From the NCBI GenBank assembly GCA_021234155.1, contig JAJEKV010000011.1:13679255-13743254 (forward strand): a DNA stretch of 64,000 nucleotides, written 5' to 3'. Shown here piece after piece: positions 3,865 through 42,920 of this stretch. Positions within the stretch are counted from its first letter, which is position 1; the number at the start of each line of letters is the position of its first letter. Position numbers and translations under genes: made by a program. Source of the DNA: Isoetes taiwanensis. Taxonomy: Eukaryota; Streptophyta; Lycopodiopsida; Isoetales; Isoetaceae. The notes beneath the pieces were generated by a model. The model did no database searches, was not told the origin of the DNA, and saw only the letters and a list, made by a program, of their open reading frames with translations.

Positions 3865-3865
3865 A

Positions 3866-24381: not shown

Positions 24382-24413
24382 CATTAGGGCGGATTTGGGG
24401 TCTGAAAATGGCC
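24382..24413 (+). repeat. Left terminal inverted repeat of the giant element
   Basis: Thirty-two bases starting CATTAGGGCGGATTTGGGGT and ending AAAATGGCC are the exact reverse complement of 42,889-42,920. Weaker similarity (TTCCACGTCA) continues for about 30 bp on each side. Confidence 0.95.
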
Positions 24414-25072
24414 CTTATCTTGGGTTAAAGATTTCCACGTCAGATTCCCCAGGACCAATCAGGTTTGCGCCTTTTTTACGAAAGTCAGTATTACTTGGCA
24501 GGTAGAAGGATGAGCAGGCTTACTTGGCATCCACATGGCGTATTTTCATAGGGGATGCCCAAGCTTTTATTGCAACCATTTTAATGGCCTCAGTATTTTT
24601 TAGAGTCGCCACCCGCCCAAAATAATGGTGACTTTGACCGCCCTCTTGTCGGCGTCACCAACTCCCTTTTGTAAAATTTTGGCGCCAAACTTCAGATTTG
24701 TCGGTCCCCAGCCTCGTGCATCCTCTCCTTCCTTCACTCCTCATCCGCAATCCATGTCTCCTGTAATTTCGTGTTCTTGCCCCATTTACGTAACTCCCAA
24801 GGTCAAGAAGTGGGAGGTTTTGTCTCAATAGGTTCAGGGTGAGTATGCCGCCATCAACGAGGGGCGAGCATAGAGTTAGCGACAAAAGCGATCGGGCGAT
24901 GCGGACACATTGGATAGGTAGGATAAAAGAGTTCAAGTTGAATTCTAGCGGTAGGAAAGTGGAAAGTATAACAATACGACATGCATATACCCTTTCGATA
25001 TGGCCAAAGAGCTAATCTCCACCAAAAACAAACTTTCCCAAAATTGCCCGCAAATGGTAACCACCTTAATCG
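24414..25072. other. Left subterminal region of the giant element
   Basis: No recognised gene. A short ORF on the + strand starting near 24,753 (MSPVISCSCPIYVTPKVKKW) stops after 27 residues; it could be a first exon but has no family resemblance. The region reads as GC-rich 5' flanking sequence up to the first motif hairpin at 25,073. Confidence 0.4.
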
Positions 25073-25141
25073 GATCACACGACGCCGGGCTAGTCGCCGA
25101 CTACTTAACTGCGTAGAGAGATAGTTTCGCGTCGTGTGATC
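25073..25141. repeat. Inverted motif pair (cassette boundary 1)
   Basis: GATCACACGACGCC at 25,073-25,086 and TTTCGCGTCGTGTGATC at 25,125-25,141 are inverted arms around a spacer of about 40 bp. The same motif, as pairs or single copies, recurs throughout the giant element and not outside it. Confidence 0.85.
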
Positions 25142-25383
25142 TCCTTTTCATTTCTTTCGTTGACACGTGTTTACAAACAAATTTATTGTGCAGGTTTATG
25201 TTTATCAGACGTCGTGGATGACGTCGTGGATGTCATTCCGGCCGAAAGTATTAGTAGTGTACTTGTCGTGTATCACATAGACATCGGAATTGTCCTTTTC
25301 CAAGGTATGGATGCCGTGACCTTGCGGGTATAGGCATCCGGTTTTACTGGACATGATTATAACGTAAAGGTCGAAACCGAAGT

Positions 25384-26058
25384 TTGAGGCCGGTTGAATT
25401 GCCCCCTTTAAGTGAACTTTGTAAGCCACAGACTAATGAGAACAATGTAATTGCAATGAAGAAATGCATGGATGACGAGGTGCAAGCGGGAATGTCTGAA
25501 AACAGAGGCGTGAGGATGAGTTTCAAAATCTTCACACCGTTTGAGGTATTTGCTAACATATTCGGATATGGCGCAGAAGTTCAAAAAGCTCAAAGACATA
25601 TACGTGCTTTCTCCCCCACGATTTTGTGGATGGCTTATTTTTGGTTCCGACTGGATGTTCGATTCCACGAATCATCCGGTCAACTAACAGAGGTCCGCGT
25701 AGTTAAGTCCTCCTTTAAGTTCGGGATACTTTCTTCCAAAACAATATTTATAATGTTAATTGTCAACTAGAACGAAGGAAACAGAAAAAGAGAGGTCGCA
25801 CAACTTTTTGGGAGCCGTTTGAGGACCATAACAGACACTTCGAGCGGTGGATATTCGAGTATGGAGAGGGAGGAAGTCATTTATCAGCCACCATGGAAAG
25901 CGAATGGCCATTATCGAGCTAAGAGTGCTAATGGAGACGAGGGAGATTGGCTTGGCGACTTCCATTATTTTATTGATGGCATTAGGGTTGGTTACAGGCA
26001 AGAGGGAAATGTAAAGTTTAGTGAGTTCGCGATCAACAAGAAATTGTCTATCGCCTAA
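25384..26058 (+). pseudogene. Unrecognised cargo gene 1
   Basis: Two open stretches in different frames probably belong together. The first (25,384-25,690) includes PVELPPLSELCKPQTNENNV and SFKIFTPFEVFANIFGYGAE. The second (about 25,819-26,058) includes EREEVIYQPPWKANGHYRAK, DEGDWLGDFHYFIDGIRVGY and a stop after INKKLSIA. A frameshift or a short intron between about 25,690 and 25,800 could join them. I do not recognise the family and see no signal peptide or membrane segment. It lies between motif pair 1 and the histone-like gene. The true start may lie further upstream, toward 25,140. Confidence 0.45.
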
Positions 26059-26268
26059 CGCTTTGAATCTCGGTTTTTTATTTGTGTTTTTGTCCGATGT
26101 TTTTTTAGAGTTCCGTATTTTGTCCGATATTTTTTTAGGGTTCCGTACAATTATTTAAAAACGTTACTATCATCTTTTACTTTAACTTCTGTTTTTTACT
26201 ATTTATCTCTTGCCAGTTGTCTATTTTTGTCAGTGTTCATAGTATAAAGCGCCATCCGCTGAGAAGCC

Positions 26269-27091
26269 ATGGCAAGAACTAAGCAAACTGCAAGGACCCA
26301 TCCAGGTGGTGTAAGGCCGGTGATTACATTAGTCGCCTTCTTCATCGACTCTGAAGTCTCGATAGAGATTCTCCTCCTCCGACCATGCCTAACGTAAGAC
26401 CCGGAAAGAAATCCGCATGACGACGGGAGGGAGAAGCAGCCCGAGTAAGTAGGGAGGTGCATTCCTGTTGGAGACAGAGGATGAAAATGTGAGAGACCGG
26501 GCGAGCGTAATATGACGGATTAATTATTGGGCAGCCGCCTCTTCTTGCTCTTCCCGCTCCTCCCTCCTCCCCGTGGGCGTGCGGGACCTTCAAATCAAAG
26601 GAGGAGGCCCAACGCCGAAAAGGGAAGGCGACCCGGGAATGTGAGGAGACGACCGGGAAGAGTCGGTAGGAACAACCGCAAATGCTTGGGTGAGGAGGCG
26701 GCCGGAAGAGTCGGGCCGAACAAATGTGCTCCAAATTTGGGGTGGGTGAGGGTAGTGGCCGAAGCGGAAGACGAAGCCTCGGCATTAAAGCCTTCCAGGA
26801 GATTAAGAAGTATCAGAAGAGCACTGAGATGGTCATTCCGCGTCTCCCATTTGCCAGACTCGTGAGAGAGATTCTGCAAGAGTGTGGTGCGATACATCAT
26901 ACCAGTTACAGAATTCAAGCAATTGCCTTAAATGCTCTTCAAATGGCTTCGAAGCGCTTGGTGTCGGGCCTGTTCGAGGACTCGCAGCCTTTGCAATACA
27001 TGCCAAGCGGGTGACCTGCATGCCCAAGGACATGCGCCTGCGTCTTACGCATAAGGGATCCCGAGTACTATGGTCAAAATTTTATGGCTGA
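26269..27091 (+). pseudogene. Divergent histone H3 gene carried by the giant element
   Basis: The ATG at 26,269 (CCATGG context, TATAAAG about 18 bp upstream) starts MARTKQTARTHPGG. The first nine residues equal the canonical H3 tail, including K4; K9 is T and S10 is H. A GT donor (GGTG|GTGTAAGG, near 26,309) and an AG acceptor near 26,696 would join it to a frame containing GIKAFQEIKKYQKSTEMVI, LPFARLVREILQE, IQAIALNALQMASKRLVSGL and FED. This is the H3 histone fold (alpha-N, alpha-1, alpha-2). One missing base near 26,985 moves the end to another frame, where AIHAKRVTCMPKDMRL (loop 2, start of alpha-3) is read to 27,091. A ubiquitous H3 would be nearly identical to consensus, so this is a diverged variant. 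The splice sites are inference. It may be a functional variant with a base error, or a pseudogene. Confidence 0.85.
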
Positions 27092-27264
27092 ATACAACAA
27101 GAAGAAAGACCCCCGAGAAAAAAGGCCGTGAAGTGCCTTTGTGTTTTTTTCATATGTATAATATTTCTTAATGTAATGGCTTTATAAGCTGAATCTCTTA
27201 GTCCATTTCTTTCTTAGAAGCCTAGCTTCAAGACTTTGTATTTTTTTTAATGTTATAACGTGAG

Positions 27265-27332
27265 GATCACACGACGCTTGTGCAAGCATTGTGCTTTTTG
27301 TTGCACATAATAGTCTTCGCGTCGTGTGATCC
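27265..27332. repeat. Inverted motif pair (cassette boundary 2)
   Basis: GATCACACGACGC at 27,265-27,277 and CTTCGCGTCGTGTGATCC at 27,315-27,332 flank a spacer that itself contains a small hairpin (TGTGCAA...TTGCACA). It follows the histone-like gene and abuts five telomere-like hexamers. Confidence 0.85.
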
Positions 27333-27362
27333 AACCCTAACCCTAACCCTAACCCTAACCCT
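27333..27362. repeat. Five copies of CCCTAA (vertebrate-type telomere motif)
   Basis: Thirty bases of perfect AACCCT repeats, equivalent to TTAGGG on the other strand. The usual plant telomere unit is TTTAGGG. It starts directly at the end of the motif arm at 27,315-27,332. Confidence 0.9.
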
Positions 27363-27490
27363 GGAATGTACGGACAAATCTCCCCACAACGGCTGTGTCC
27401 CCTTTCATAATCGACAACGGCTACTTGAGTTCAAAAGTGACAAATACCTTTACCGCTCCTAAACATCTTGTTTTCGTCGTTTGCTTCGCC

Positions 27491-28546
27491 ATGGATTGTT
27501 ATGTGAAGTTCCTGGAATGGTATGCATCCGCCCCTCATGACAACGAGGAAGTTGCGCCGACTGCGATTTATCCGTTCTATTGCAAGGAGTTGGACATCAT
27601 GGCAAACAAGAGTAAGCTTGATGCTATCGCGAGGTTGCCTTAGCTTTCACCCGAACCGCTTGGTCTCAGCGCACGTCCTTTGCAGATGTCCCTGGCTCGT
27701 GGATTCCAAAACCAGCTCTAGAGGAGGCGGCTTCCCATTTGCAAACAGGGAAGATGTTTTTCAAGAATGCTGCGCAACGGGCTCCTCCTGGTTGCGTCCT
27801 TGTGCTTAAGAAGGTATCTTATTTCTCTTTGCCCTTTGCATTTGCTAGTTATTGCATTCTCTTTCGGCCAAACCCAAGATACACCGAAATAATGAAATCT
27901 TTAAGCCAAGGGGGGTTATTATGTGTGATGATGTGACTATGACGTAGAAATGGAGATAGATCTACAAGAAGAAGAGGAAGAATGTAGGAGTTTTAGCTTC
28001 GACGACCGGCCTTGGGGTGAACCAGAGGAGGGAGATGATTCAAGGTGATGAGGATGGGGATGAGAGTGAAAAGAAGTTGTCCTGGACATAACGCCAATTT
28101 TAGTGGAAGGCAAAGAATACCTATTGCTAAGTGATATACTGAGGAACCCGTCTTTGTTACGAATGTGTGCTAGGGAAGACGAGCTTATCAGTACCTTGGC
28201 CGAATGGGTAAACTTAGGCCTAGATTTTGAAGAGGATTTGGACAAAGAGATGTTTGAAGTGTCTAATTATACCGGCAATGCTATAAAGCTTAAAGAAGCC
28301 TATGAGAGGTCGGAGTCTCGATTTGCTCAAGATGAGGCGAATCTACCAACGGAAGAAGAATTCCAAATCTCCGTGCAAAAAAGTCGCCAACAGGATCTGC
28401 TGTTTTGGCGTGCCCTTCACCAATCAATGGCAAAGATAAGCCTGGTAGATGAGGATAAATGTGAAGAAGATAAGCTTGAGGGTTCTTATTTGTGGGAAGT
28501 AGATGATTTTTCTTGCCGACATGCACGCGGGGACAGGAAAGATTGA
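27491..28546 (+). pseudogene. Unrecognised acidic cargo gene 2
   Basis: The ATG at 27,491 opens MDCYVKFLEWYASAPHDNEE and is open for 50 residues. A second segment in another frame (about 27,685-27,810) reads WIPKPALEEAASHLQTGKMF and ends at a GT that could be a donor (AAGAAG|GTATCT). A third (27,951 on) is very acidic (MEIDLQEEEEECRSFSFDDR). The longest (28,103-28,546) has LLLSDILRNPSLLRMCARED, LGLDFEEDLDKEMFEVSNYT and FQISVQKSRQQDLLFWRALH. Most likely this is one intron-containing or frame-shifted gene. I recognise no domain. The bounding motifs suggest that it is one cassette. Confidence 0.4.
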
Positions 28547-29052
28547 AGGACTCTACATTGTTACGATATATCTCAAGATTCGTTAATGGGGAGATAATCG
28601 TCTTCAGCAGAACTTTCAGTCCAAAAGGTGCAGAGTTTGTCTATTACATCCGTGCATTATGCATGTTCGAACTATTCCCAATTGGCATCAAACACCGAAA
28701 GGGTGATAGCAATTCGGGGGGATGTTGTGCTACAATATTTTGACGACCAAGCGGTCTCATGGCGAGCAATATGTTAAATTTTTTAGTCACCGGCTTGACT
28801 CACCCAAGGTTGGAAGTCGGGTCGATAACATGGAAGTCATTGCCTTGTTGGATCATCGGTCTGTGGGGATTGAAAGAGCATAAAATTGACGCATTTAAGC
28901 TTGAGAAATTGGAAGTTATATATTTTCCAACTTGTATCGGTAAAATTATTTATGTACGTATTGTTCTTCCAAATTCCTAATAAAAATTATTTTATTTGTA
29001 TTTATTCACATCACGCCAAATACATCACCCCGATTTTTCTGTCATATCTAGG
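28547..29052 (+). other. Possible further coding remnant, unassigned
   Basis: Two short overlapping frames (28,513-28,743 and 28,759-28,980) contain FVYYIRALCMFELFPIGIKH and VTGLTHPRLEVGSITWKSLP. They might be the C-terminal part of the preceding gene in shifted frames. No family was recognised. AT-rich sequence with AATAAA follows, consistent with a 3' end, up to the motif at 29,053. Confidence 0.3.
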
Positions 29053-29140
29053 TTTTCGCGTCGTGTGATATCTATCTCAAGAAATGAAATATTATTGGAA
29101 AAAACAATTAATTTATTTATTCCTCACACGACGCGAGAAG
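29053..29140. repeat. Inverted motif pair (cassette boundary 3, arms reversed)
   Basis: TTTTCGCGTCGTGTGATA at 29,053-29,070 and CTCACACGACGCGAGAAG at 29,123-29,140. The arms are in the opposite order to pairs 1 and 2, so they point outward. A TATAAATA box follows at 29,159. Confidence 0.8.
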
Positions 29141-29252
29141 CAACTCGTGTGACTCATGTTATAAATAGAAGACCGATGTCCACGCCGACCTCCGACGCCT
29201 TCCGCCTTCTGCTCATCTTCTACTTCCGGCCCGCCTTCCACCTTCTCTCCCG

Positions 29253-29635
29253 ATGGCATCATCATCTTCCTCAGCAAGCGACCACGCCAAGATAGCACTC
29301 CCGCCTGTAGCCGCTGCCGCGGACATCACCCTTGCAATGGTGATGAAGAGATTCAAGGAGATCCATGATGAAAACAACCGCCTCGCCGCCGGTGAACAAT
29401 GAGGCGGTTGGACAGATTAGCCTTTACGAGGGAGCCGCCGCACGAAGCGAGACGTTGAGCTCGTGGAAACATTCGCCCATGTACCAAGAGGCTTAACGAG
29501 CCAGCAGGCCGGCGGTAGCTTGAAACCGCCACATGATTTCGCAGCCTTAGAAGATATGGAGAAGAAGCTCCGAAATGCGGAGGATGAGAACGCGACCTTT
29601 ACGGCTTCAAATGCGCAGGACATGAAAATCAGCTA
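29253..29635 (+). pseudogene. Small coiled-coil protein gene, family copy 1
   Basis: A TATAAATAG box at 29,159 precedes the ATG at 29,253. The protein starts MASSSSSASDHAKIALPP and continues ADITLAMVMKRFKEIHDENN. The first frame stops at 29,402. An indel appears to separate it from the rest, where LEDMEKKLRNAEDENATF is read and the frame stops near 29,633. The expected protein is about 120 residues, Ser-rich at the start, then mostly helical with heptad-like charged repeats. The same layout is seen in the next gene and, more distantly, in the small genes of the 2.49-kb units. Function unknown. Confidence 0.55.
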
Positions 29636-29755
29636 GAGGATCATGAAGATACCTAGCCGTTGTATCTATCTATTTTTTGCTTCAAAGAAAAGTTTTCTCT
29701 ATTTTTTGCTTCTATCTATCCTCTTGTTCCAATGTATGTTCTGTTTTATTAAAAT

Positions 29756-30048
29756 ATCACACGACGCGAAATGCCTTGCTTGCAATTAGGTAGCAAACAA
29801 TGGATTTCAAGGCCGGTGATCTCCATGCCGCTTCTATTTTGCTTCAATGAGAAGTTCTATCTTTAGTTATGTATCAAGAAAATTACTTATGTATAGATTG
29901 TATCACCGAAATTATCAATAAAAATTATCACACGAGCTTTCTCTGGAAGAAAAGACGTTAGAAGAAGTAACGGTCCTTTTTCCTCACACGACGCGAGAAG
30001 TAACGGTCCATTTTCCTGACCCACGGCATCCTTCGCGTCGTGTGACTC
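29756..30048. repeat. Cluster of boundary motifs between the two coiled-coil genes
   Basis: ATCACACGACGCGAAAT at about 29,756, CCTCACACGACGCGAGAAG at 29,982-30,000 and CTTCGCGTCGTGTGACTC at 30,031-30,048, with a degenerate copy (TATCACACGAG) near 29,928. The last pair is inverted. A TATAAATAG box follows at about 30,070, as in copy 1. Confidence 0.8.
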
Positions 30049-30171
30049 AAGCTGCTACGAAATCCCTGTTATAAATAGAAGACTTTCTATCTTGCCTTCG
30101 ACCTCCGATCCTCTTCCTCCTTCCGCCTTCTGCTCATCTTCTCCGCCTTCCGCCTTCCGCCTTCTCCTCCG

Positions 30172-30500
30172 ATGGCATCATCATCCTCCTCCAGAAGTTT
30201 ATCACGCCCAGGCCGCCCGCGGACATCACCCTTGCTGTGGTGATGAAGAGATTCAAGGAGGTTCACGACGAAAACAAAACGCCTCGTCGCCGCCGAAGAT
30301 GGAGGCGGTGGACAGGTTAGAATTCACGAGGCGAGACCTTGAGCTCGCGGCAACATTAACCAGGTACCGAGAGGCCAATAGCCGTAGGGTCGAGGCAGTT
30401 TTAACTGCACACAATATTTCACAGGCGCTAGAAGATATGGAGAAGAAGCTTCGAAGCCGCGGAGGATGAGAACGCAGCTTTTCACGGCTTCAGCCTGAGG
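30172..30500 (+). pseudogene. Small coiled-coil protein gene, family copy 2
   Basis: This paralogue of the gene at 29,253 has the same promoter sequence (TATAAATAGAAGAC, near 30,070). The ATG at 30,172 gives MASSSSS; the frame then breaks, and the helical part is read from 30,300 (MEAVDRLEFTRRDLELAATL, then ALEDMEKKLRSRG). Nucleotide similarity to copy 1 is high over the whole transcription unit, including the 3' flank (ATCAATGGATTTCAAGG). It carries several indels relative to copy 1. Function unknown. Confidence 0.5.
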
Positions 30501-31125
30501 ATCATGAAGATCCGTAGCCATTGTATATATATTTTTTGTTTCAAAGAAAAAATTTGCTATGTTTCTTGCTTCTATCCGTTTCTCTTGTTTTGTTTTATTA
30601 AAAGATCACGACGACGCCAAATGCCATTCTTGCAATTAGGTAGCAATCAATGGATTTCAAGGTCAGATGATCTCCACAACGCATACACCTCGTTGTATGT
30701 ATAAATTCCTAATTTATTAATGGAAAAGTATATGTAACACAAATATCTAGCTAGATTATGTGATAACTTGCGTGGTAAATGCTAATTTGCATGTGGATGA
30801 CAACGCTATTCACATATGTGGCTTCGGATGACAACGCCATGCCAAGGACGTGGCATGCGCCGCCACAATAACATCGTTTTTGTACGGCCTCGCATACAAG
30901 ATGGGCTAGGGATATGACGGATCCCATGATGCTAACATAGGCTACCATTGAATTTTGCCTCGTGGGATTATTACACAACTTTATCGGTACTTTCGCAACC
31001 GTAGATTCCAACGTATTCCTAGTTTCTATATAAAACGCCCGGGGCCTTTGTCTTCTCCTATCCGCCATCTCTCCGTTTCTACCACATCCGCCCTCACCAT
31101 CTCTCCCGTTCTCCCATCACTTTCA

Positions 31126-31540
31126 ATGGCCTCCAACTCCGCCCATCCCCGCCGAGATCTTGTCTCAAGTTTTGGTCAAGGAAATTCGTAACATTCGTGG
31201 CTTTGGGTTTTTAGGAACGGATCCGCCTTCTAAAAGAAAAAAGAATGATGAAGACGCCGCTGTCGGGTTAAGGCGGCAGGAAAAAGGCCGCCTTCTACGG
31301 GAGGTGATTTTAGTGCGCTGACAATCACGGGGCTGCCTTTAGACCGCTAATTGCGCGCCACCACGATATATAACCTCCAAGAGAGGCTTAGGGCCGCAAT
31401 CGGCTGGAGAGGCTGCCCCGAGCTCAACTCGATGAGCGGAAGATAAGGTTGGCGAATATGAGAACGTGGTTGGTTGGGGCAGCAATCATGTTGGAGGAGC
31501 AGAAAAATTATCACCGCCCTCCGTGAAGAGCTTGCCCGGC
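31126..31540 (+). pseudogene. Small gene A, copy 1
   Basis: The ATG at 31,126 (ATGGCCTCC) starts a Ser-rich N-terminus, as in the other A copies, but an early indel shifts the frame to a stop. The remaining sequence parallels copies 2 and 3 to the conserved TTATCACCGCCCTCCGTGA end. Predicted family: about 120-residue helical protein. Function unknown. Confidence 0.5.
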
Positions 31541-31674
31541 GATCATAGGCATCGGCTCCTCCTAGAGGGGCCCGCTTTTTTAATGTTTGTAATGGTTTTA
31601 TTTCCTCAATGGGAAAAGTTTTTGACAAATGTGCCGTAATATTACGCTTTCTCGGTAGAGAGAATGACAAGACA

Positions 31675-31738
31675 GATCACACGGCGAAACCCTTCATAGG
31701 GTTTTAAAGCTCGTGTGCGATTTCAAGGTGGTGTGATA
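31675..31738. repeat. Motif pair between genes A and B, unit 1
   Basis: AGATCACACGGCGAAACCC ... GGTGTGATA brackets an inner hairpin (AACCCTTCATAGGGTT). Equivalent pairs lie at 34,195-34,259 (unit 2) and 36,676-36,745 (unit 3). It sits after the A terminator hairpin and before the B promoter. Confidence 0.8.
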
Positions 31739-31967
31739 TAAATGCGATTAGAATAGTTATTAATGTGTTCCAAATGACAAGACCATTAATGTGTTCTAGC
31801 GGACAACCGACGTAATCCGCCGACACGCATGCGACAAAGGCGGCCGTGTGTTTAATATGTTCAAGCGCCAATATGTATAAATTGAGGTCCTTGCATTGTG
31901 CTCCTTCCGCCGGTTAGAGTCTTTTCTCCTCACTTCTATAATCTTAACGCCCTCCCATTTGTCATCT

Positions 31968-32436
31968 ATGGCCTCCACATCCTCAACCGCCGATAAGGGA
32001 AAACGAAGAGGATAGAACTCCCTTCCTCACATAGTGTTGGGTGTTCTAATGAAGAGGTTGAAGGAGCAAGATGATCTTCTAAAGGAAAACGCCATACAAT
32101 TCAGCGTAAAAGAAGAAGAGAATGAATTCAACCTTCTCATGCTTCAGAGCCGTGAGAGGCAAATCAAAGCGTTGAATAGAAGGTCGGACAGATGACATGC
32201 CCCAACAACTGCACCGAGGTGGTTATGACGGCAACGAGGATGCTAATTCAGGCGTAAGAACACGCTTGTGCTATTGGGACAGGAGCGGGACATGTACAAA
32301 GAGATGGTGGACGATTGGAGGAACGCTTGATAGGGTGATTGCTCGCTTGAGGGGAAGAGATGAAGACGAAGACGAGGACGGAGCTGATGATGATGATGAA
32401 GATAATGAAGAAGAGATCGCGACCGAGCAACAATGA
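31968..32436 (+). pseudogene. Small gene B, copy 1
   Basis: The ATG at 31,968 follows a TATAAATTGAGG box by about 95 bp. It starts MASTSSTADKGK and then breaks; the C-terminal frame from 32,197 ends in an acidic tail (RGRDEDEDEDGADDDDEDNE) and a stop at 32,436. Family as in copies 2 and 3. Confidence 0.55.
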
Positions 32437-32517
32437 GTCGTTGTATTTTGTTTTTCAATGTAACATCTTTCACAACTTTAATCAAAAGTAACCCTTTTTA
32501 TTATTATCTTGTAAAGC

Positions 32518-32659
32518 TTCACACGACGTGAAGCCACATAAATGCAAGCAATAGCGAACTCCACTCGCTCGCTACCAGATGATACAAATAAGATCACACG
32601 ATCACGGCTACGCTTGTGCAAAACAAGGTTGGAGGCAAGTACTTCAGCGTCGTGTGAAC
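32518..32659. repeat. Motif cluster between gene B and the transposase 3' end, unit 1
   Basis: CTTCACACGACGTGAAG at 32,518, GATCACACG at 32,592 and CAGCGTCGTGTGAAC at 32,645-32,659. The equivalents in units 2 and 3 are cleaner: 35,024-35,040, 35,099-35,112 and 35,148-35,164; then 37,516-37,532, 37,594-37,607 and 37,645-37,661. It separates two convergent genes. Confidence 0.85.
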
Positions 32660-32669
32660 ATGCTACACA

Positions 32670-33445
32670 TTACAAGTATACTTTTACCGATTCTTTGTCT
32701 CTTAGATCTCCACCGCTATTCTTGCGATGCTAGTGGGGCCCTAGAATTTTGCCAAGCAACTTTCCGTTTTCTTCAAAGATTATGCCAATGGTGTTTACGA
32801 CTTCGGGTTGCTCCTTAAAGCGACCTTCTTGTCGTGATTTAGCCATCGCCCTTCTATAAAACCACTCATCATCCTGTCTTAGAGGGTTGGTTCCCACATT
32901 TCCACCCCCCTTTGAGTGTTACGATGAAAGGCTATTTTAGCTTGTTTATGCGACTTCTCCATGCCTTGTGCACTCCACAATCGCTAGGCTTCCATACTTC
33001 CTAAAAACCAAGGTGCATGAGCCCAAAAGATGTGCAAGTAGTGCGTGACTTCACTCTCTCCCCATGCGCCTATGAAAGCTTTAATAAATTTGTTATTCGC
33101 TTGCACGAACATTTCTCGCATCTTCTCTTGTGAGGTCCATTCTCCGAATGTATGGGAACAATTCGCACAATGCATCCCATGCTTTTTTTTTTCCCTCAAT
33201 GCCGAATCGAACGCCATCTCAGGCGGTCCCCGCTCCGCATCAACCAAAGAATTTTCCAAATTCATAGATCTTTTCTCCCATCCGGTTTCCGCTCGTAGCC
33301 TCTCTATGATTCTTTATGAAGCATCGAAGCTTTCCCCTCCAATTGACACCTTTTACGAGGCACACTTGTTCTTCCCCGCCTGCTTTCTCATCGAGCTCTA
33401 ATCTTACATTGCCACCATGCAAACCTCGCTTCGATAGAACATGTT
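32670..33445 (-). pseudogene. Truncated transposase C-terminus, copy 1
   Basis: The minus-strand stop is at 32,670-32,672. Frames with indels give SEVTHYLHIFWAHAPWFLGS and upstream VQANNKFIKAFIGAWGE. It is the same sequence as copy 2, ending at the unit border. No start codon of its own is supported, so it is a by-product of the tandem duplication. Confidence 0.75.
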
Positions 33446-33627
33446 CAACTCCACGAATTCCTTCCTCTCTTCTCTTCTTGTCCAAATGTACTGCGCAACC
33501 CGTAGATTCCAACGTATCTCTAGTTTCTATATAAAACGTCCGAGGCCTTTGTCTTCTCCTATCCGCCATGTCCTGTTTCTACCACATCCGCCCTCGACCA
33601 TCTCTCCTATTCTCCCATCACTTTCAA

Positions 33628-34022
33628 TGGCCTCCAGCTCCGCCTTCCATCCCCGCCGAGATCTTGTCTCAAGTTTTGGTCAAGGAAATTCGAACATTCG
33701 TGGCTGGGGCGGAGGAACGGATCCGCCTTCTAAAAGAAAAGAATGATGAAGACGCCGCCAAGCCGGTTAAGCGGTAGAGGAAAAGGCCGCCTTCTACAGG
33801 GGAGATGATTTTAGTGCGCGACAAATCACGGGTTGCCTTAGACCGCTAATTGCGCCACGAGAGATATAACCTCCAAGAGAGGCTTAGGGCCGCAATCGGC
33901 GGAGAGGTCTGCCCGAGCTCAACTCGATGAGCGAAGAAGATAAGGTTGGCGGAATATGAGAACGTGGTTGGCGGGCAGCAATCATGTTGGAGGAGCAGAA
34001 AAATTATCACCGCCCTCCGTGA
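33628..34022 (+). pseudogene. Small gene A, copy 2
   Basis: The ATG near 33,628 (ATGGCCTCCAGCTCC) lies downstream of TATATAAAACG. The coding sense, seen across shifting frames, includes EILSQVLVKEIRTFVAGAEE and RIRLLKEKNDEDAAKPVKR, a charged helical stretch. The end is marked by the shared sequence before the hairpin AGAGGGGCCCGC. The separation of frames by single bases suggests recent indels or consensus error. Confidence 0.5.
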
Positions 34023-34473
34023 AGAGCTTGCCCTATGATCATAGGCATCGGGCTCTCCTAGAGGGGCCCGCTTTTTTTTAATGTTTGTAATGGTTTTATT
34101 TCTGAATGGGAAAAATTGTTTTTGACAAATGTGCCGAATATTACGCTTCCTATTTTAATTTTCAATATCCGTGGTAGAGAGAATGACAAGACAGATCACA
34201 CGAAGCGAAACCCTTCATAGGGTTTTAAAGCTCGTGTGCAAATTTCGCGTGGTGTGATATACAATTAATGTGTTCCAGCGGACAGTACCATTAATGTGTT
34301 CTAGCGGACAACCGATTTAATCCGGCCGACACGTCCGACGCTGCTGAAAGTGTGTTTAATATGTTCAAGCCGCCAATATGTATAAATTGAGGTCCTTGCA
34401 TTGTGCTCCTTCCGCCGGTTAGAGTCTTTTCTCCTCACTTCTATAATCTTAACGTCCCTCCCATTTGTCATCT

Positions 34474-34942
34474 ATGGCCTCCACATCCTCAACCGCTGAT
34501 AAGGAAAAACGCAAGAGGATAGAACTCCCTTCTGACATAGTGTTGGGTGTTCTAATGAAGAGGTTGAAGGAGCAAGATGATCTTCTAAAGGAAAACGCCG
34601 TTACAATTCAGCAGAAAGAAGAAGAGAATGAATTCAACCTTCTCATGCTTCGTAGCCAAGAGAGGCAAATCAGCAGCTTTGAATAGAAGGTCGACAGATG
34701 ACATGCCCCAACAACCGCACCGAGGTGGTTATGACGGCAACGAGGATGCTAATTCAGCGTAAGAACACGTTGTGCTATTGGGACAGGAGCGGGACATGTA
34801 CAAAGAGATGGTGGACAGATTGGAGGAACGTTTGGATAGGGTGATTGCTCGCTTGAGGGGAAGAGATGAAGACGAAGACGAGGACGGAGCTGATGATGAT
34901 GATGAAGATAATGAAGAAGAGATCGCACTGGAGCAACAATGA
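34474..34942 (+). pseudogene. Small gene B, copy 2
   Basis: The ATG at 34,474 opens MASTSSTADKEKRKRIELPS, then DIVLGVLMKRLKEQDDLLKE and EEENEFNLLMLRSQERQI. The first frame stops at 34,684 after an indel. The remainder reads MVDRLEERLDRVIARLRGRD and an acidic tail, with a stop at 34,942. The predicted protein is about 155 residues: Ser-rich start, basic patch KRKR (possible nuclear signal), long coiled coil, acidic C-terminus. Such a layout suggests a nuclear protein-interaction role, which is inference. Confidence 0.6.
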
Positions 34943-35174
34943 GTCGTTGTATTTTGTTTTTCAATGTAACATCTTTCACAACTTTAATCAAAAGTAACCC
35001 TTTTTTATTATTATCTTGTAAAGCTTCACACGACGCGAAGCCACATAAATGCAAGCAATAGCGAACTCCAATCGCTCGCTACCAGATGATACAAATAAGA
35101 TCACACGACGCCGGCTACAGTTGTGCAAACAAGGTTGGAGGCAAGTACTTCGCGTCGTGTGAACATGCTACACA

Positions 35175-35975
35175 TTACAAGTACACTTTACCGATTCTTT
35201 GTCTCTTAGATCTCCACTGTTGCGATGCTAGTAGGGCCCTAGAATTTTGCCAAGCAACTTTCCGTTTTCTCTTCAGCATTATGCCAATGGTGTTTACGAC
35301 TTCTAGGTTGCTCCTTAAAGCGACCTTCTTGTCGTATTTAGCCATCGCCCTTCTATAAAACCACTCTATCATCTGTCTTAGAGGGTTGGTTCCCACATTT
35401 CCACCCCCTCTTTGAGTGTTACGATGAGAGGCTATTTTAGCTTGTTTATGCGACTTCTCCATGCCTTGTGCACTCCACACTGCTAGGCTTCCATACTTCC
35501 TAAAAAACCAAGGTGCATGAGCCCAAAAGATGTGCAAGTAGAGCGTGACTTCACTCTCTCCCCATGCGTCTATGAAAGCTTTAATAAATTTGTTATTCGC
35601 TTGCACGAACATTTCTGCATCTTCTCTTGTGAGGTCCATTCTCTGAATGTATGGGAACAATTCAGACAATGCATCCCATGCTTTTTTTTCCCTCAATGCC
35701 GAACGAACGCCATCTGTGCGGTCCTGCTCCGCATCAACCAGCAATTTTCCAAATTCATAGATCTTTTCTCCCATCTGGTTTCCGTTCAGAGCCTCTCTAT
35801 GATTCTTTATGAAGCATCGAGCTTTCACCCCTCCAATTGACACCTTACGAGGCACACTTGTTCTTCCTGCCCGTTTCTCATCGAGCTCTAATCTTACATT
35901 GCCACCATGCAAACCTGCTTCTGATAGAACATGTTCAACTCCACGAATTCCTTCCTCTCTTCTCTTCTTGTCTGA
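35175..35975 (-). pseudogene. Truncated transposase C-terminus, copy 2
   Basis: The cleanest copy, open for 245 residues: KARCFIKNHREALNGNQMGE, then LREKKAWDALSELFPYIQRM, then YLHIFWAHAPWFFRKYGSLA, then VWSAQGMEKSHKQAKIASHR, NTQRGGG, and a basic tail (KRKRKVAW, SKRQRIGKVYL). The pattern Y-x-H-hydrophobic-H-x-P...GSL...Q-x-x-E-x-x-H is like the last catalytic block (the Glu of DDE) of several eukaryotic cut-and-paste transposases. Its 5' end is at the duplication junction, so it lacks the other catalytic blocks. Confidence 0.8.
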
Positions 35976-36114
35976 AATGTACTCGCAACCGTAGATTCCA
36001 ACGTATCTCTAGTTTCTATATAAAACGTCCGAGGCCTTTGTCTTCTCCTATCCGCCATGTCCTGTTCTACCACATCCGCCCTCAGCCATCTCTCCTATTC
36101 TCCCATCACTTTCA

Positions 36115-36510
36115 ATGGCCTCCAGCTCCAGTTCCATCCCTGCCGAGATCTTGTCTCAAGTTTTGGTCAAGGAAATTCAGAACATTCGTCTTGGAAGCGA
36201 GGAACGGATCCGCCTTCTAAAAAAAAAAGAATGATGAAGACGCCGCCAAGCTGGTTGGCGGTAGAGGAAAAGGCCGCCTTCTACGGGAGGTGATTTTAGT
36301 GCGCGACAATCAATCGGTTGCCTTAGACCGCGAATTGCGCCCACGAGATATAACCTCCAAGAGAGGCTTAGGGCCGCAATCGGGGCGGAGAGGTCTGCCT
36401 GCCAGAGCTCAACTCGATGAGCGAGAAGATAAGGTTGCGTAATATGAGAACGTGGTTGGGGCGTGCAATCATGTTGGAGGAGCAGAAAAATTATCACCGC
36501 CCTCCGTGAA
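36115..36510 (+). pseudogene. Small gene A, copy 3
   Basis: The ATG at 36,115 gives MASSSSSIPAEILSQVLVKE and then IQNIRLGSEERIRLLK in one frame. A run of ten A then shifts it to an early stop. The rest of the gene matches copies 1 and 2. It carries the best-preserved N-terminus of the A group and shows that the A group resembles the B group (PSDIVLGVLMKRLKE) and the 29-kb genes (ADITLAMVMKRFKE). Confidence 0.55.
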
Positions 36511-36979
36511 GAGCTTGCCCGGCGATCATAGGCATCGGGCCCCTCCTAGAGGGGCCCGTTTTTTAATGTTTGTAATGGTTTTATTTCTGAATGGGAAAAG
36601 TTTTTGACAAATGTGCCGAATATTACGTTTCCTATTTTTAATTTTCAATATCCGTGGTAGAGAGAATGACAAGACAGATCACACGAAGCGAAACCCTTCA
36701 TAGGGTTTTAAAGCTCGTGTCACTTGATTCAGCGTGGTGTGATATACTGTCACGCTTAGAATAGTTATTAATGTGTTCCAAATGACAAGCACCATTAATG
36801 TGTTCTAGCGGACAACCGATGAAATCCGCCTTCGACACGTCGCGGCGCCAATGAAAGTGTGTTTAATATGTTCAAGCGCTAATATGTATAAATTGAGGTC
36901 CTTGCATTGTGCTCCTTCCGCCGGTTAGAGTCTTTTCTCCTCACTTCTATAATCTTAACGTCCCTCCCATTTGTCATCT

Positions 36980-37434
36980 ATGGCCTCCACATCCTCAACC
37001 GCTGATAAGGGAAAACGCAAGAGGATAGAACTCCCTTCTGACATAGTGTTGGGTGTTCTAATGAAGAGGTTGAAGGAGCAAGATGATCTTCTAAAGAAAA
37101 ACGCCGTTACAATTCAGCAGAAAGAAGAAGAGAATGAATTCAACTTTCTCATGCTTCGTAGCCAGGAGAGGCAAATCAGGCGGTTGAATAGAAGGCTGGA
37201 CAGGATGACATGCCCCAACAACTGCACTGAGGTGGTTATGACGGCAACGAGGATGCTAATTCAGGCAGAAGAACACGTTGTGCTATTCTATACAAAGAGA
37301 TGGTGGACAGATTGGAGGAACGTTTGGATAGGGTGATTGCTCGCTTGAGGGGAAGAGATGAAGACGAAGACGAGGACGGAGCTGATGATGATGATGAAGA
37401 TAATGAAGAAGAGATCGCACTGGAGCAACAATGA
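36980..37434 (+). pseudogene. Small gene B, copy 3
   Basis: The longest uninterrupted copy: ATG at 36,980 and open to 37,336 (118 residues), reading through the coiled coil, then RRLNRRLDRMTCPNNCTEVV, then a frame change caused by a 15-17-bp deletion relative to copy 2 (GGGACAGGAGCGGGACATG is missing). The acidic tail survives in another frame to 37,434. Upstream TATAAATTGAGG at about 36,887. Confidence 0.6.
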
Positions 37435-37671
37435 GTCGTTGTATTTTGTTTTTCAATGTAACATCTTTCACAACTTTAATCAAAAGTAACCCTTTTTTAT
37501 TATTATCTTGTAAAGCTTCACACGACGCGAAGCCACATAAATGCAAGCAATAGCGAAACTCCAATTGCTCAAGGCCATGATGATACAAAATAAGATCACA
37601 CGACGCTTGAGGTACAGTTGTGCAAACAAGGTTGGAGGCAAGTACTTCGCGTCGTGTGAACATGCTACACA

Positions 37672-40418
37672 TTACAAGTACACTTTACCGATTCTTTGTC
37701 TCTTAGATCTCCACTGTTGCGATGCTAGTGGGGCCCTAGAATTTTGCCAAGCAACTTTCCGTTTTCTCTTCAGCATTATGCCAATGGTGTTTACGACTTC
37801 TGGGTTGCTCCTTAAAGCGACCTTCTTGTCGTATTTAGCCATCGTCCTTCTATAAAACCACTCTGTCATCTGTCTTAGAGGGTTGGTTCCCACATTTCCA
37901 CCCCCTCTTTGAGTGTTACGATGAAAGGCTATTTTAGCTTGTTTATCACGACTTCTCCATGCCTTGTGCACTCCAAACTGCTAGGCTTCCATACTTCCTA
38001 AAAACCAAGGTGCATGAGCCCAAAAGATGTGCAAGTAGTCGTGACTTCACTCTCCCCATGCGTCTATGAAAGCTTTAATAAATTTGTTATTCGCTTGCAC
38101 GAACATTTCTGCATCTTCTCTTGTGAGGTCCATTCTCTGAATGTATGGGAACAATTCAGACAATGCATCCCATGCTTTTTTTTTTCCTCAATGCCGAACG
38201 AACGCCATCTGTGCGGTCCTGCTCCGCATCAACCAGCAATTTTCCAAATTCATAGACCTTTTCTCCCATCCGTTTCCGCTTCGAGCCTCTCTATGATTCT
38301 TTATGAAGCATCGAAGCTTTCACCCCTCCAATTGACACCTTACGAGGCACACTTGTTCTTCCCCGCCCGTTTCTCATCGAGCTCTAATCTTACATTGCCA
38401 CCATGCAAACCACGCTTCCGATAGAACATGTTCAACTCTACGAATTCCTTCCTCTCTTCTCTTCTTGTCCGAAATGTTCCACACGAATCTGCTTCAAAAA
38501 TATCATCTTGTCGATGATTCTCACAAAGCCGTGCAAAGTGCAGATATGAACCCTCTCTAATGGAATGGGGAAAATGCCATGGAACTTGGGATCTTCTTCT
38601 CCTCTATTAGGAGCATTTGCTTGGTTAAGGGACAAGGTTGAAACAGTCTTCCCAGTACTTGACTTCCTTGCATGATTGCAAAGATGCATAACTTTTTGCA
38701 TGTTCCTTGTCCTCCTCCACTTATGTTGTACATTGCTTTCTCGGTTTTTAAATCGGGCGCCAAGTGAAAAATTACTTTGTAAGATCCATAGTGATCTACT
38801 TGCAATTTTTCCCCTCCCTCGAATCTAGATATTAGACTCGGGATGTCAGTTTGATTGAACACCCATTTCAATACCTCGTGGGTTTCTTTCTGAACTTTAA
38901 AGAGACCTAACCACCAGGTGTCATCTTCGATTGACATGAGAACCATTTTTCCATACGCTTCTTCTCCTCGTCCCCACCTCTACATCTTTTTATTATTCTT
39001 GTTGCTCTTTGATTTAGCATGTGCAATTGCATTCTCAATTGCTCTATTTATGATGACAACGGATACCCTCTCATACTTCTCAAACTTGGTCGGGTTCCAT
39101 TTCATCCAATTTTATGCAAACTTCAATCTCACCATATTAGTTTCTCGCAATCTGTTAAGTCATAATATTTGACAAGGAATTGTAAGAGAGTAAACCAGTC
39201 AACCCAAAGATTATTATGCGTTCATTCATTCCAACTATATCACAACAATCCTTGCCATTCTTATCTTTTTTATGGCTATGGCGGGACCAAAGACATTCAA
39301 CGTGGTGCATCTCTCCTAATATGGCATACACCATCTTTGTCCTAGTAACCCTTGTATTCTCGACAATTTGTGGACGTGGAGCTAATACTTTTTGTGCCCA
39401 TTCTTTTCAACGCTTCGTGGAATGGCTTGAATAGAGAACGGTAACCAAGCCTACTGATGCCTACATCATCACAAACAGTCTGTACATCTGTCGCTTCTAA
39501 CTTCTTGTAGATCTCCCCTAGTACCATTTCCAATACCATCTTCTTGAGAGGAGAGTTGTAGGGCTGACAAATCATGTCCACTATCTCCCCGCTCGTCGCT
39601 AGGTTCTTCACTACACGTAACCAAGATTGCTTCTAGTTTTCCCAAATCTTAACGGCCTTTGCTAGTGTTGTAAACGGACCTTGTGGCCGTGACCCTGCGT
39701 CTGAATGCACCTGATCCAAACTTCAGTTCCTCTATCGATCGATAATGCTTCTTCCTTTCTCGCAAGCCAAGGGGTGTTTTCTTCAAATTCTTTAACCTAC
39801 ATTGAAGCCCAAAGTTTGCTCTTTTTCGAGCTCTTGGATCTTTTCTTGCAGCTGCCCTATCACCAATTTGGACTTGTCCACTTCGTATCTCAAAGAAGTT
39901 TCCCTCCCCAAGCCGTCATTCCTTTCCTTCATCACGATTGGAGTAATGAAGCGAGAGAAAAAAGAGTCTGCTGGTTTAAGTTATAATTCACTTGTGACAA
40001 TCGGAAGCGGCTCATCTCAAGGAACTCATTGATTCGATTCAATGCCTTCATCCTCTCAAATCTCTCACAATATCCCAAGAGGCCAGAGTTACCGTCACCA
40101 CAAAATCGGACTAAACTTGAAACGTCCCAAATGACGGTTTCTTGCCACTCAACGGATCCAATGGATATAAACCGCCATCCGCCCGGATGTCGACACTTTT
40201 TGAGCACGCAAGGACGCAACATGTCGAGGTCTAAGTTCTTATTTTTAGACCTCCTTTTTGCGATTGAAGACTGGAGCATATTCCCTCGAGTCGGTTGGAT
40301 CCTTATCCACACATCATTTGGAGCTTCCATACAAGCGTGGATCGCACGGCTTGAAATGAATGTGTACAATTTGTATGCCCCAAAGACATTAAACCGTTTG
40401 AGGCTCAAATCAGACTAA
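37672..40418 (-). pseudogene. Full-length but frame-shifted transposase-like gene of the giant element
   Basis: On the minus strand from about 40,418 down to 37,672 the open stretches line up as one gene of about 900 residues. N-terminal part (40,408-39,932): RPCVLKKCRHPGGWRFISIG and WDVSSLVRFCGDGNSG. Middle (39,611-39,342): MVLEMVLGEIYKKLEATDVQ. Then 38,946-38,557: LQVDHYGSYKVIFHLAPDLK, KTEKAMYNISGGGQGTCKKL and CIF, followed in another frame by CNHARKSS and ERVHICTLHGFVRIIDKM. Last the C-terminal block shared with copies 1 and 2. A DLK...GGGxG...CxxC block followed by a Q-x-x-E-x-x-H block is the order expected for a DDE transposase. I cannot place it in a named superfamily. At least five indels interrupt it. 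Confidence 0.7.
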
Positions 40419-40930
40419 CCTCGTTTTTGAAATTTCCAACGTGCATATGGAATCGAAAAGTCCATTCTCACACAATCCATGCTTTTATACAAAAGCAAAT
40501 TCAAAATTCGAATTGTAGGGGGGGGAAGCCCAGGGGATGAAGTAAAGATCCCGATTCACGAACTTTTAAGGCGCAATCGCAGCGCCCTCGAAAACGAAAA
40601 GTCTAATACAAAGCTTCAACCTACACATTCAAATTTTGAAATGTAGAAGGAATGGACTCTAAATGAAAATAGGGCAAGACAAGAATCGGTGATGCGCATG
40701 ATTGGTATCTGACAAACCAAGAGACACCGTCATGAGTTGCCGGTACTATAATGCAAGAGGCTTTTAGAAGCGCCACGTGTTAAGGCCAATGCAATCGACA
40801 ACCAACGAATTAAATACATATGGCGCCATAGATATCACGATTCCCTTTTCCGTGAGAATATTCCAAGCAAATCGGACGGGAAAAAAGGGGCGGAAATAGG
40901 GCGGGAATGGTCGATAGGAGGCCATTTTAG
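40300..40930. repeat. Internal copy of the right-end sequence (direct repeat, copy 1)
   Basis: This stretch is repeated in direct orientation at about 42,290-42,900. Shared blocks include CCATGCTTTTATACA, CAAAGCTTCAACCTACACAT, CAAGAGACACCGTCATGAGT, TTAAATACATATGGCGCCAT and GAATATTCCAAGCAAATC. It covers the presumed promoter and 5' end of the transposase gene and stops just short of the TIR (GGCCATTTT is present, the terminal 22 bases are not). Confidence 0.85.
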
Positions 40931-41038
40931 TTCATAAAACATAATATAACTTGGAATGATAGATATTTTATATGCAAATGGGAGACTATTGATGAGGGAC
41001 TTGTGTTTAATTTTAATTTGACAACAAATAAGAAAGTG

Positions 41039-41105
41039 GATCACACGATGCGAATTTAGTGTGTTCCATTTTTGTTGCATATGTACTATTCGCTTGGTGT
41101 GATCC
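41039..41105. repeat. Inverted motif pair (rightmost boundary)
   Basis: GATCACACGATGCGAA at 41,039-41,054 and ATTCGCTTGGTGTGATCC at 41,089-41,105, both slightly degenerate. It separates the transposase promoter region from the acidic protein gene. Confidence 0.75.
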
Positions 41106-41403
41106 TTGAAAAATAATATGCTCTTTGAAAAGGAATAATGACTTATGTACTTAAGAGTGGTAACACATGTACAGTAAAAAAAAAGTTAGGTATTCAAATG
41201 GAATTAGAAGCAAAAACGTTTTACATTCAAAATTTTTTATGGCCGTATGGATTTACATCATTTTGTAAATTTAAATGCCCGGAGGCTTCAACTATTCACA
41301 ACAAAAAAGCCCGGAGGTTGCAGTCATATGGTAAGAAGCTGGAGGCAAGCTGGAGGCTAAGAACAAGGAAAAAAAAATAAGAGGTGCTCTGCCCTAACAA
41401 ATT

Positions 41404-41826
41404 TCATTCATCTGCTTCACCATCTGCAAAAAAAAAAATAAGAAATAATCGTTAGTTGAATGCTTAAGAAAAGAAAGAAAACATGCATGTACCATGAACT
41501 AACGCCATGAGCTCCTCGAAGTCAGCGGATTCGTCTTTGACTTCTTTATCTTCTTCATCATCTTCGGCTTCTTCTCCGTCGGTAGACCACTCATTTTCTG
41601 AAGAATCTCCTATCCAGCCTTCAAGAACACCTGTGATGAACTCCTGCTCCGAAATTTCCTCTGATTCCTCATTCTCTGATTCCTCGTCAAAGGAATCAGA
41701 GGAATCAGAGGCATTCAGAGCAAGAACCGTGGGCAGCGGAGGGAACTGCGGAGGGAACACCTCTTCCAGCCGTAATAGGCGCCTCTTGGAGGACACCTCT
41801 GGCTCTTCCGTAGCTGCTCTCTTCAT
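41404..41826 (-). CDS. Acidic nuclear-type protein of the giant element, two exons
   Basis: Exon 1 is 41,493-41,826 and exon 2 is 41,404-41,423, joined by a 69-bp GT-AG intron with a strong polypyrimidine tract (GTACATG ... TTTTTTTTTGCAG). The splice is in frame and gives 117 residues ending in HDGEADE. The start is MKRAATEEPEVSSKRRLLRL, with two basic patches that could act as a nuclear signal. Then VFPPQFPPLP and a long acidic stretch (FDEESENEESEEISEQEF; EEAEDDEEDKEVKDESADF). Without the intron the ORF reads on to 41,464 with a less plausible tail. No family was recognised; the composition recalls histone chaperones or transcription activators, which is only a compositional remark. It is the only cargo gene here without a frame break. 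Confidence 0.7.
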
Positions 41827-42012
41827 GGCGATGGACTAGAGAAATTGGGCGGAGGATCTAGCGAAGATTGGGCGGAGATTGGGGGGGCGCCAATCTAGGC
41901 TGGAATAGATCTAGGCTGGATTAGACGTGAAAATCGTAGGAATGATTCGTATTCCAGTCCTATCAACCATCATTACATGCCATTATGTGCATATCTCGAA
42001 GTTTGAGCCATA

Positions 42013-42118
42013 TCTAATATCTTCCTTTTTTAACCTTATACCTAAATATCCAATATCTTCCTTTTTTAACCTTATTCCTAAATATCCAATATCTTCCTTT
42101 TTTAACCTTATTCCTAAA
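42013..42118. repeat. 36-bp tandem repeat, about three copies
   Basis: Three near-identical copies of CCAATATCTTCCTTTTTTAA followed by CCTTATTCCTAAATAT. Not coding. It lies near the right end of the giant element, upstream of the acidic gene. Confidence 0.9.
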
Positions 42119-42289
42119 CCTATATGATTTGAGTTTAATCTGAAAATGAACACCGATATAATTCGAATTTAACATACTATTTAATACCAAGATGCTACGT
42201 CACACTATGTCGATAATTGGGATTTAAAAAAAAACATTCCAAACCCTCCTCGAGAAAACCACGTAAGTGCCGACCTCACTTGTGTTTAA

Positions 42290-42900
42290 GTTTAATTTGA
42301 CAACAAGCAACTTCCATATCGTAGATCGTGACGGTGCCAAAATCAAGGTGTGGTATTTTTATGCCCCAACACAATTAAACCGTGTGAGCCGAACGTCCGT
42401 ATTAACCGTTTTGAAATTTGCAACGCGTGCATATGGAAATCGAAAAGTCCATTCTCCTACAATCCATGCTTTTATACATTAAGCAAATTCAAATTTCGAA
42501 TTGTAGGGGACGGAAGCCTGTATTAGGATGAAGTGAAGATCGGTTAAAGCGCGCGCCCGGCCCTCGAAATGAAAGTCCGATCCGATACAAAGCTTCAACC
42601 TACACATTCAAATTTTGAAATGTAGAAGGCGGACGCCAAGACGACGCTTACCAAGAGACACCGTCATGAGTTGCCGGTATGCTATAATGCAAGTGGCATT
42701 TTAGAAGCGCCACGTGTTGCATCAGTCCGTCTGACAACCAACAGAATTAAATACATATGGCGCCATGAATGTGCAATCCCCCTTATTCCGGAAGAATATT
42801 CCAAGCAAATCTGTAATTATGAGAGATTGGTATCCTAGGTGGCATGGGAAAAAGGGAGCGGAAATATGACGTGGAATGGCTGATAGGAGGCCATTTTCAG
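42290..42900. repeat. Right-end sequence (direct repeat, copy 2)
   Basis: Second copy of the block at 40,300-40,930, running into the terminal inverted repeat. Copies have diverged by many small indels. A stretch near 42,350 still matches the N-terminal coding region of the transposase. Confidence 0.85.
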
Positions 42901-42920
42901 ACCCCAAATCCGCCCTAATG
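42889..42920 (-). repeat. Right terminal inverted repeat of the giant element
   Basis: Exact reverse complement of 24,382-24,413, ending CCAAATCCGCCCTAATG. The gag sequence of the interrupted retroelement resumes at 42,921. Confidence 0.95.

Follow-up and report, generated by a model that had tools for sequence, protein, structure and literature searches.

We analyzed a 64,000-nucleotide stretch of the lycophyte Isoetes taiwanensis (contig JAJEKV010000011.1, positions 13,679,255 to 13,743,254; hereafter the window), in which positions 24382-42920 are occupied by an 18.5-kb element bounded by terminal inverted repeats (TIRs). The element belongs to a mobile, high-copy family of cut-and-paste DNA transposons of about 13.5 kb, and we consider it likely that this is a giant family of the RAG1/Transib class that leaves no target-site duplication (TSD). 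An initial annotation of the window had proposed a plant giant cut-and-paste transposon, a proposal borne out by the recovery of both TIRs in inverted orientation at other loci (at least 20 pairs) and by exact empty sites.

Termini, copies and insertion sites

The two arms of the window copy are 32 bp long and 100% complementary, with 18,475 bp between them, just as the initial annotation had described. The features that define the element are as follows.

24382-24413, plus strand: left TIR, beginning CATTAGGG; 564 exact genome copies, control 0
42889-42920, minus strand: right TIR, exact complement of the left arm
24433-24442, plus strand: second subterminal 10-mer, TTCCACGTCA, with its start 52 bp in from the left end; exact in 8 of 11 copies
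42867-42876, minus strand: the same 10-mer, TTCCACGTCA, with its start 45 bp in from the right end; exact in all 11 copies
44206-44230, plus strand: empty site GTGCCA/CAAAAG in the adjacent retroelement copy; joined flanks align with no gap at the junction
25075-41092, no strand assigned: intergenic motif TCACACGACGC / GCGTCGTGTGA, 16 exact copies, often as inverted pairs between genes
30999-38480, no strand assigned: three tandem copies of a unit of about 2.5 kb, each with two small genes (plus) and the 3' part of the transposase gene (minus)

In the genome searched (1,658,258,908 bases, 1110 contigs), the exact 32-mer occurred 564 times (286 forward and 278 reverse), compared with 0 occurrences of a control pattern consisting of the TIR read backwards, which rules out a chance origin of the TIR. 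Pairs were counted by hand among the first 100 of these 564 places, taking inward-facing repeats up to 30 kb apart; at least 20 were present, 15 of the 20 spanning 13.2-13.8 kb and the rest 5.4, 15.5, 18.5 (the window), 24.3 and 29.8 kb, and 60 of the 100 places had no partner. No short derivative resembling a miniature inverted-repeat transposable element was seen among these places, the shortest pair being 5.4 kb.

Ten of the 13.2-13.8-kb pairs, read whole, all contained the same element in either orientation at 13.4-13.7 kb; for the other nine pairs, the junctions alone were read. Each of the ten whole copies aligned to a single 2.5-kb unit, of which the window has three, an array unique among the 11 copies. 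The common form is about 13.5 kb, and the window copy is that element with two extra 2.5-kb units. The 18.5-kb element of one style seen by the initial annotation is real, but its length reflects the threefold 2.5-kb segment and its composition is partly a matter of probable sequencing error. A separate search recovered seven further left ends in other flanks, matching at least the first 0.8 kb of the element. The family looks young, since its 11 copies differ on average by about 1.5-2.1% outside the error-prone CG/CHG-type contexts.

The host sequence of the window copy is a retroelement whose neighboring tandem copies lack the insertion, as had been noted earlier; two such uninterrupted sites, at about 44.2 and 45.4 kb, both align gaplessly at the junction with the joined flanks and are base-exact against the filled site, which excludes a 2-bp TSD "CA" there. 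At a third empty site (E09 compared with L034), the left side agreed up to the junction and the right side had one to three ambiguous bases, and a fourth, 66% identical, was too diverged for a verdict. A TSD of 3 bp or more was found at 0 of 20 pairs, so that neither the 5-bp TSD of RAGL/Transib elements nor the 6-bp TSD of Polintons is present, and agreement of a single flanking base (6/20) matched the 6.1 expected from mismatched pairs. No fixed target motif was seen in the 20 pairs.

All 20 pairs ended in CATTAGGG, by which they had themselves been found, with no CAC-type heptamer. Beyond the TIR, TTCCACGTCA was the one 10-mer common to both ends, occurring once at 53 on the left, and the chance of any 10-mer being shared by both ends is about 0.02. 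Its unequal distances from the ends recall, without proving, the two-part and unequally spaced ends of RAG substrates. In separate observations, GGCCATTTT, from the inner edge of the TIR, recurs at about 40920 of the window, and blastn of other copies indicated that a stretch near the right end (about 42310-42640) recurs 2 kb inward at about 40330-40650 with 77-82% identity.

The interior is CpG-rich, as initially described, with an observed-to-expected (o/e) ratio of 0.93 compared with 0.34 in the left flank and 0.53 in the right; the CAG o/e ratio is 0.54, compared with 0.93 and 0.77 in the flanks. The shared boundary motif and the TATA boxes of the initial annotation were likewise recovered: the 16 exact copies of TCACACGACGC inside the element, counted on both strands, compare with 0 exact copies and 2 at two mismatches elsewhere in the window, and five of seven predicted plus-strand starts have a TATA-like hexamer in the 150 bp upstream. 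Five telomere-like AACCCT units (27333-27362) adjoin one TCACACGACGC-type boundary motif. Outside the element, the window holds a 139-bp foldback element (3411-3549 / 3731-3869), a relative of which lies inside another giant-element copy (L003 504-764).

The candidate transposase gene and its relatives

Two features of the window bear on the transposase.

37672-40330, minus strand: transposase gene, RAG1/Transib-like, frame interrupted; second catalytic Asp at 38754-38752
35178-36008, minus strand: open 277-codon copy of the transposase C-terminus in tandem unit 2; motif QGMEKSH, catalytic Glu at 35459-35457

The gene was interrupted in all 11 copies read; a further family copy, outside our 23-row alignment, is open for 544 codons. 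Relatives elsewhere in the genome (L031-L035, L054 and L055) have intact frames of 864-930 codons and carry a long N-terminal coiled coil. The predicted core of one of them, L031, has the RNase H-like RAG1/Transib fold over RAG1 460-1008, and on this model the transposase core seems to be of RAG1/Transib type; a first structure prediction from five sequences was poor (predicted local distance difference test score 40.5) and was not used.

Among residues present in the 23-row alignment, the DDE positions were kept in 16/16 (D), 20/20 (D) and 13/14 (E) cases, and the zinc residues CxxC and HxxxxH in 21/21 and 19/20 (C) and 14/15 and 14/17 (H). The catalytic Glu was equated with RAG1 E962 by PDB alignment, and the two Asps are what we take to be D600 and D708 in RAG1 numbering. 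The spacings were five residues between the His pair, 20 from the second His to Glu and 21 from Asp to Cys; those of RAG1 are 5, 20 and 19.

A genome homologue search with the C-terminus of the window's own transposase gave 1911 candidates, none at E ≤ 0.001, and searches with the relatives as queries returned at least 18 distinct proteins among the best approximately 8000 candidates scored. When 22.5 kb around one relative was compared with the window element by blastn, the match was confined to the gene and the family TIRs were not seen. A divergently placed open reading frame (ORF) adjoins one relative. A 428-bp tandem array at 60970-62006 of the window, whose unit begins AATATGTAGCAAAATAACAGGGGG, has a near-identical stretch at a relative's boundary (L055, about 3333).

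Six-frame Pfam scans covered the element apart from plus-strand 35783-36999, within the repeated units; the frames are broken, yet the histone described below was found. They detected no other transposase or recombinase family (weak evidence, given the broken frames), no RAG2-like or kelch-type gene in the scanned, broken frames, and no DDE_Tnp match in either the element frames or the transposase candidate.

Several observations weigh against assigning the family to the RAG1/Transib class or against its lack of a TSD. The fold was predicted for the relative L031 and not for the broken gene of the window; similarity to RAG1 in sequence is marginal (PDB E 0.18; Pfam RAG1 PF12940 E 0.095, under the cut-off); no RAG1 match was returned when profiles of the relatives were compared with PDB sequences; and the family copy open for 544 codons has Glu at the second Asp. 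The ends of the relatives are half found, with one shared boundary (L055:3333) and no inverted partner in the stretch examined. The two widest pairs (24.3 and 29.8 kb), read at their junctions alone, may be something other than single elements. Agreement of two flanking bases was seen in 4/20 pairs compared with 1.6 expected, and a short TSD at some sites is possible. RAG and Transib elements have 5-bp TSDs according to the portions of PMC4411706 and PMC9435367 that treat them, whereas this family has none.

Histone, other cargo and sequence quality

The remaining genes of the window copy comprise a histone and a set of predicted proteins of no recognized family.

26269-27130, plus strand: histone H3-like gene, TATA-like box at 26243, frame interrupted, end approximate (Pfam PF00125, PDB H3, 11-copy alignment)
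25307-26055, plus strand: cargo gene, no Pfam match, frame interrupted, limits approximate (ORF pieces)
27491-28880, plus strand: cargo gene with acidic middle, no Pfam match, frame interrupted, limits approximate (ORF pieces)
29253-29640, plus strand: small protein 1 (MASSSS...), coiled-coil-like by eye (ORFs)
30172-30510, plus strand: small protein 2, coiled-coil-like by eye, resembling protein 1 (ORFs)
31126-31550, plus strand: small protein 3, coiled-coil-like by eye, first of three tandem copies (ORFs)
31968-32437, plus strand: small protein 4, acidic C-terminus, first of three tandem copies (ORFs)
41464-41826, minus strand: small acidic protein, 120 amino acids, no Pfam match above cut-off

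Core histone PF00125 (E 5.2e-13) was the sole Pfam family above cut-off in the frames scanned, and the non-histone cargo, pieces of all of which but small protein 2 were queried, gave nothing above it. The histone is nearest to H3 (PDB E 5e-14). It starts with MARTKQTAR in the 11-copy alignment, one copy having a changed Thr codon. The next residue is Ile in 10 of 11 copies, the window copy having Thr; it is followed by His-Pro and, in copies whose frame is unbroken there, by Gly-Gly. The H3 tail has KSTGG at the corresponding place. The translated tail retains K4, has another residue in place of K9, and is connected to the H3 fold by a linker of roughly 150 codons.

In animal cells, H3K27M and, to a lesser extent, H3K27I dominantly reduce H3K27 methylation, according to the relevant part of PMC6562757. 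By analogy, and speculatively, a K9-replaced H3 may inhibit plant H3K9 methyltransferases as H3K27M does for H3K27. The combined picture of a RAG1-fold land-plant lineage with zero-stagger integration, in which a giant element would carry its own anti-silencing H3, immune to H3K9 methylation and perhaps inhibiting the H3K9 methyltransferases behind CHG methylation, is tentative, and we regard it as doubtful when taken whole. Were the element histone to resist or block H3K9 methylation, it would add a new type of weapon to the conflict of transposons with plant silencing. A literature search, judged by titles and the starts of abstracts, found no plant histone-bearing transposon, although absence from print is unproven. 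Separately, a genome-wide core-histone search gave at least 150 matches, many of them in open frames some 450-490 codons long; the sole full frame read (L056 479-1936; close copy L057 335-1756) has a C-terminal H3 fold and an unrelated N-terminal part, and frames of this type are perhaps a second mobile family carrying H3.

Differences among the 11 copies are concentrated in particular sequence contexts, with a minority-base rate of 0.16-0.22 within one base of CAG/CTG, CCG/CGG or CG compared with 0.03-0.04 at six or more bases away. The control word CAT/ATG was nearly flat (0.074-0.088 near, 0.062-0.077 away), and another control word, GAC/GTC, was also raised (0.127 compared with 0.05-0.06). 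The retroelement flank was flat (CAG/CTG 0.138 and 0.145; CG 0.121 and 0.143), and the ORFs of three transposase relatives were mildly raised (CAG/CTG 0.104 compared with 0.057; CG 0.132 compared with 0.054). The tandem units differ by changes such as CAG to CGT, which are not deamination. The assembly (1658.30 Mb; 204 scaffolds and 909 contigs) was built from R9.4.1 nanopore reads with racon and pilon, as stated in the assembly description of PMC8566536. The CG/CHG-context variation and part of the odd composition are probably nanopore basecalling error at methylated cytosines, and the broken frames therefore cannot be read as gene decay. This probable error signature, comprising CAG/CTG depletion and CG/CHG differences, could mislead gene annotation of this assembly. 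A literature search found no paper on methylation-linked nanopore basecalling error at plant CHG sites, absence from print again being unproven.

Proposed mechanism, alternatives and known systems

We propose that a RAG1-class transposase would excise the element at its 32-bp TIRs, possibly with recognition of the second subterminal motif as well, which lies at unequal distances from the two ends, and that the same enzyme would insert it with a 0-bp stagger. The H3-like histone and the small proteins may provide the element with chromatin and accessory factors of its own. Tandem duplication presumably gave the window copy its two extra 2.5-kb units.

An unlikely alternative is that the element is non-autonomous, its RAG1-like gene being cargo or decayed and its TIRs being recognized by the transposase of another family. 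The gene is broken in 11/11 copies read, the genome has relatives whose ORFs are intact, and the absence of a TSD is contrary to RAG/Transib behavior; yet the copy differences cluster at CG/CHG as expected of sequencing error, one more copy is open for 544 codons (albeit with Glu at the second Asp), Pfam found no other transposase or recombinase family in the element, and the one relative compared over 22.5 kb matched within its gene alone, with no family TIRs around it. We judge it equally improbable that the TSD-less ends arose through capture of blunt excised ends by end joining at chance breaks rather than through a 0-bp-stagger transposase. RAG signal ends are indeed blunt and can be re-joined, and a 0-bp TSD is rare among DDE enzymes, but end joining typically removes or adds a few bases, two of the empty sites match to the base and a third nearly so, and the exact 32-bp ends occur 564 times.

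An endogenized large DNA virus, or a Polinton/Teratorn-like element of viral origin, that has TIRs and encodes a histone would fit the compact genes with TATA-like boxes, a cargo mostly without recognized family and the occurrence of histone genes in some DNA viruses (PMC9145170, in part). However, no DNA polymerase, capsid, packaging ATPase or integrase family was detected in the frames scanned by Pfam (plus-strand 35783-36999 uncovered) and the 6-bp TSD is absent from the 20 pairs, and we reject a giant virus or Polinton as very improbable. Less probable still is a repeat misjoin that set the TIRs 18.5 kb apart: although the assembly is a long-read draft with many apparent errors and the threefold 2.5-kb array occurs only in the window copy among the 11 read, at least 20 pairs lie at different sites, 10 of them besides the window read through, and the copies on other contigs refute an artefact for the element, though not for the array. 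A Helitron was rejected on the perfect TIRs and the lack of a helicase match in the Pfam scans.

The giant TSD-less transposon family of RAG1/Transib class that we favor can be set beside several known systems. Polintons, Teratorn and Starships share its large size and cargo; unlike them, it showed no polB, herpesvirus-like or tyrosine-recombinase family, in agreement with the initial annotation, and the six-frame Pfam scans (broken frames, with the 1.2-kb plus-strand gap) gave no match to the Polinton/Maverick protein-primed DNA polymerase B or retroviral-type integrase. Spy (PHIS) elements (PMC4482050 and PMC11304231, in part) are likewise TIR DNA transposons without a TSD; Spy transposases are of PIF/Harbinger-ISL2EU type, whereas here the predicted fold is that of RAG1/Transib, the element is far larger and its 20 pairs share no fixed target motif. 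The giant KDZ, EnSpm and Sola-1 elements of Ectocarpus are generally >10 kb and up to >30 kb, with KDZ and EnSpm high-copy, in the account given by part of PMC12477816, but belong to other transposase superfamilies, and RAG1 and Transib have 0 occurrences in the main text of that paper. VANDAL/VANC of Arabidopsis shows that a plant DNA transposon can encode an anti-silencing factor (as outlined in part of PMC10398659); VANC is a sequence-specific anti-silencing protein, whereas the candidate here is an H3-like histone.

Adaptive immunity owes its existence to RAG1, whose transposon relatives are known best in animals. A plant branch that is high-copy and recently spread, from a genome that also contains intact relatives, offers a new comparison point, and a RAG1-fold enzyme that apparently leaves no TSD is a natural case making the structural basis of stagger length testable. 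The initial annotation had regarded the element as a kind not known to it. This holds for its size, missing TSD, termini and cargo, but not for the gene, whose relatives have a predicted RAG1/Transib fold, and plant Transib-like proteins have already been reported by sequence, along with fungal and bacterial ones (39, 20 and 42, respectively, in the relevant section of PMC9435367). With RAGL, ProtoRAG and Transib, the family shares the predicted transposase core fold, the DDE residues, CxxC and HxxxxH with 20 residues from His to Glu, a TIR-bounded DNA element and a second shared end motif at unequal distances. It differs from them in its 13.5-18.5-kb size with several extra genes and a divergent H3, the long N-terminal coiled coil of the relatives, the lack of a recognized RAG2-like gene, sequence similarity below significance, the absence of a TSD (theirs is 5 bp) and ends in CATTAGGG (theirs are CAC-type heptamers). 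Since it lacks the TSD and terminal heptamer features, we file the enzyme in the RAG1/Transib fold class and do not call the element a Transib. The element works like a RAG/Transib element, yet departs from these in size, TSD, termini and cargo.

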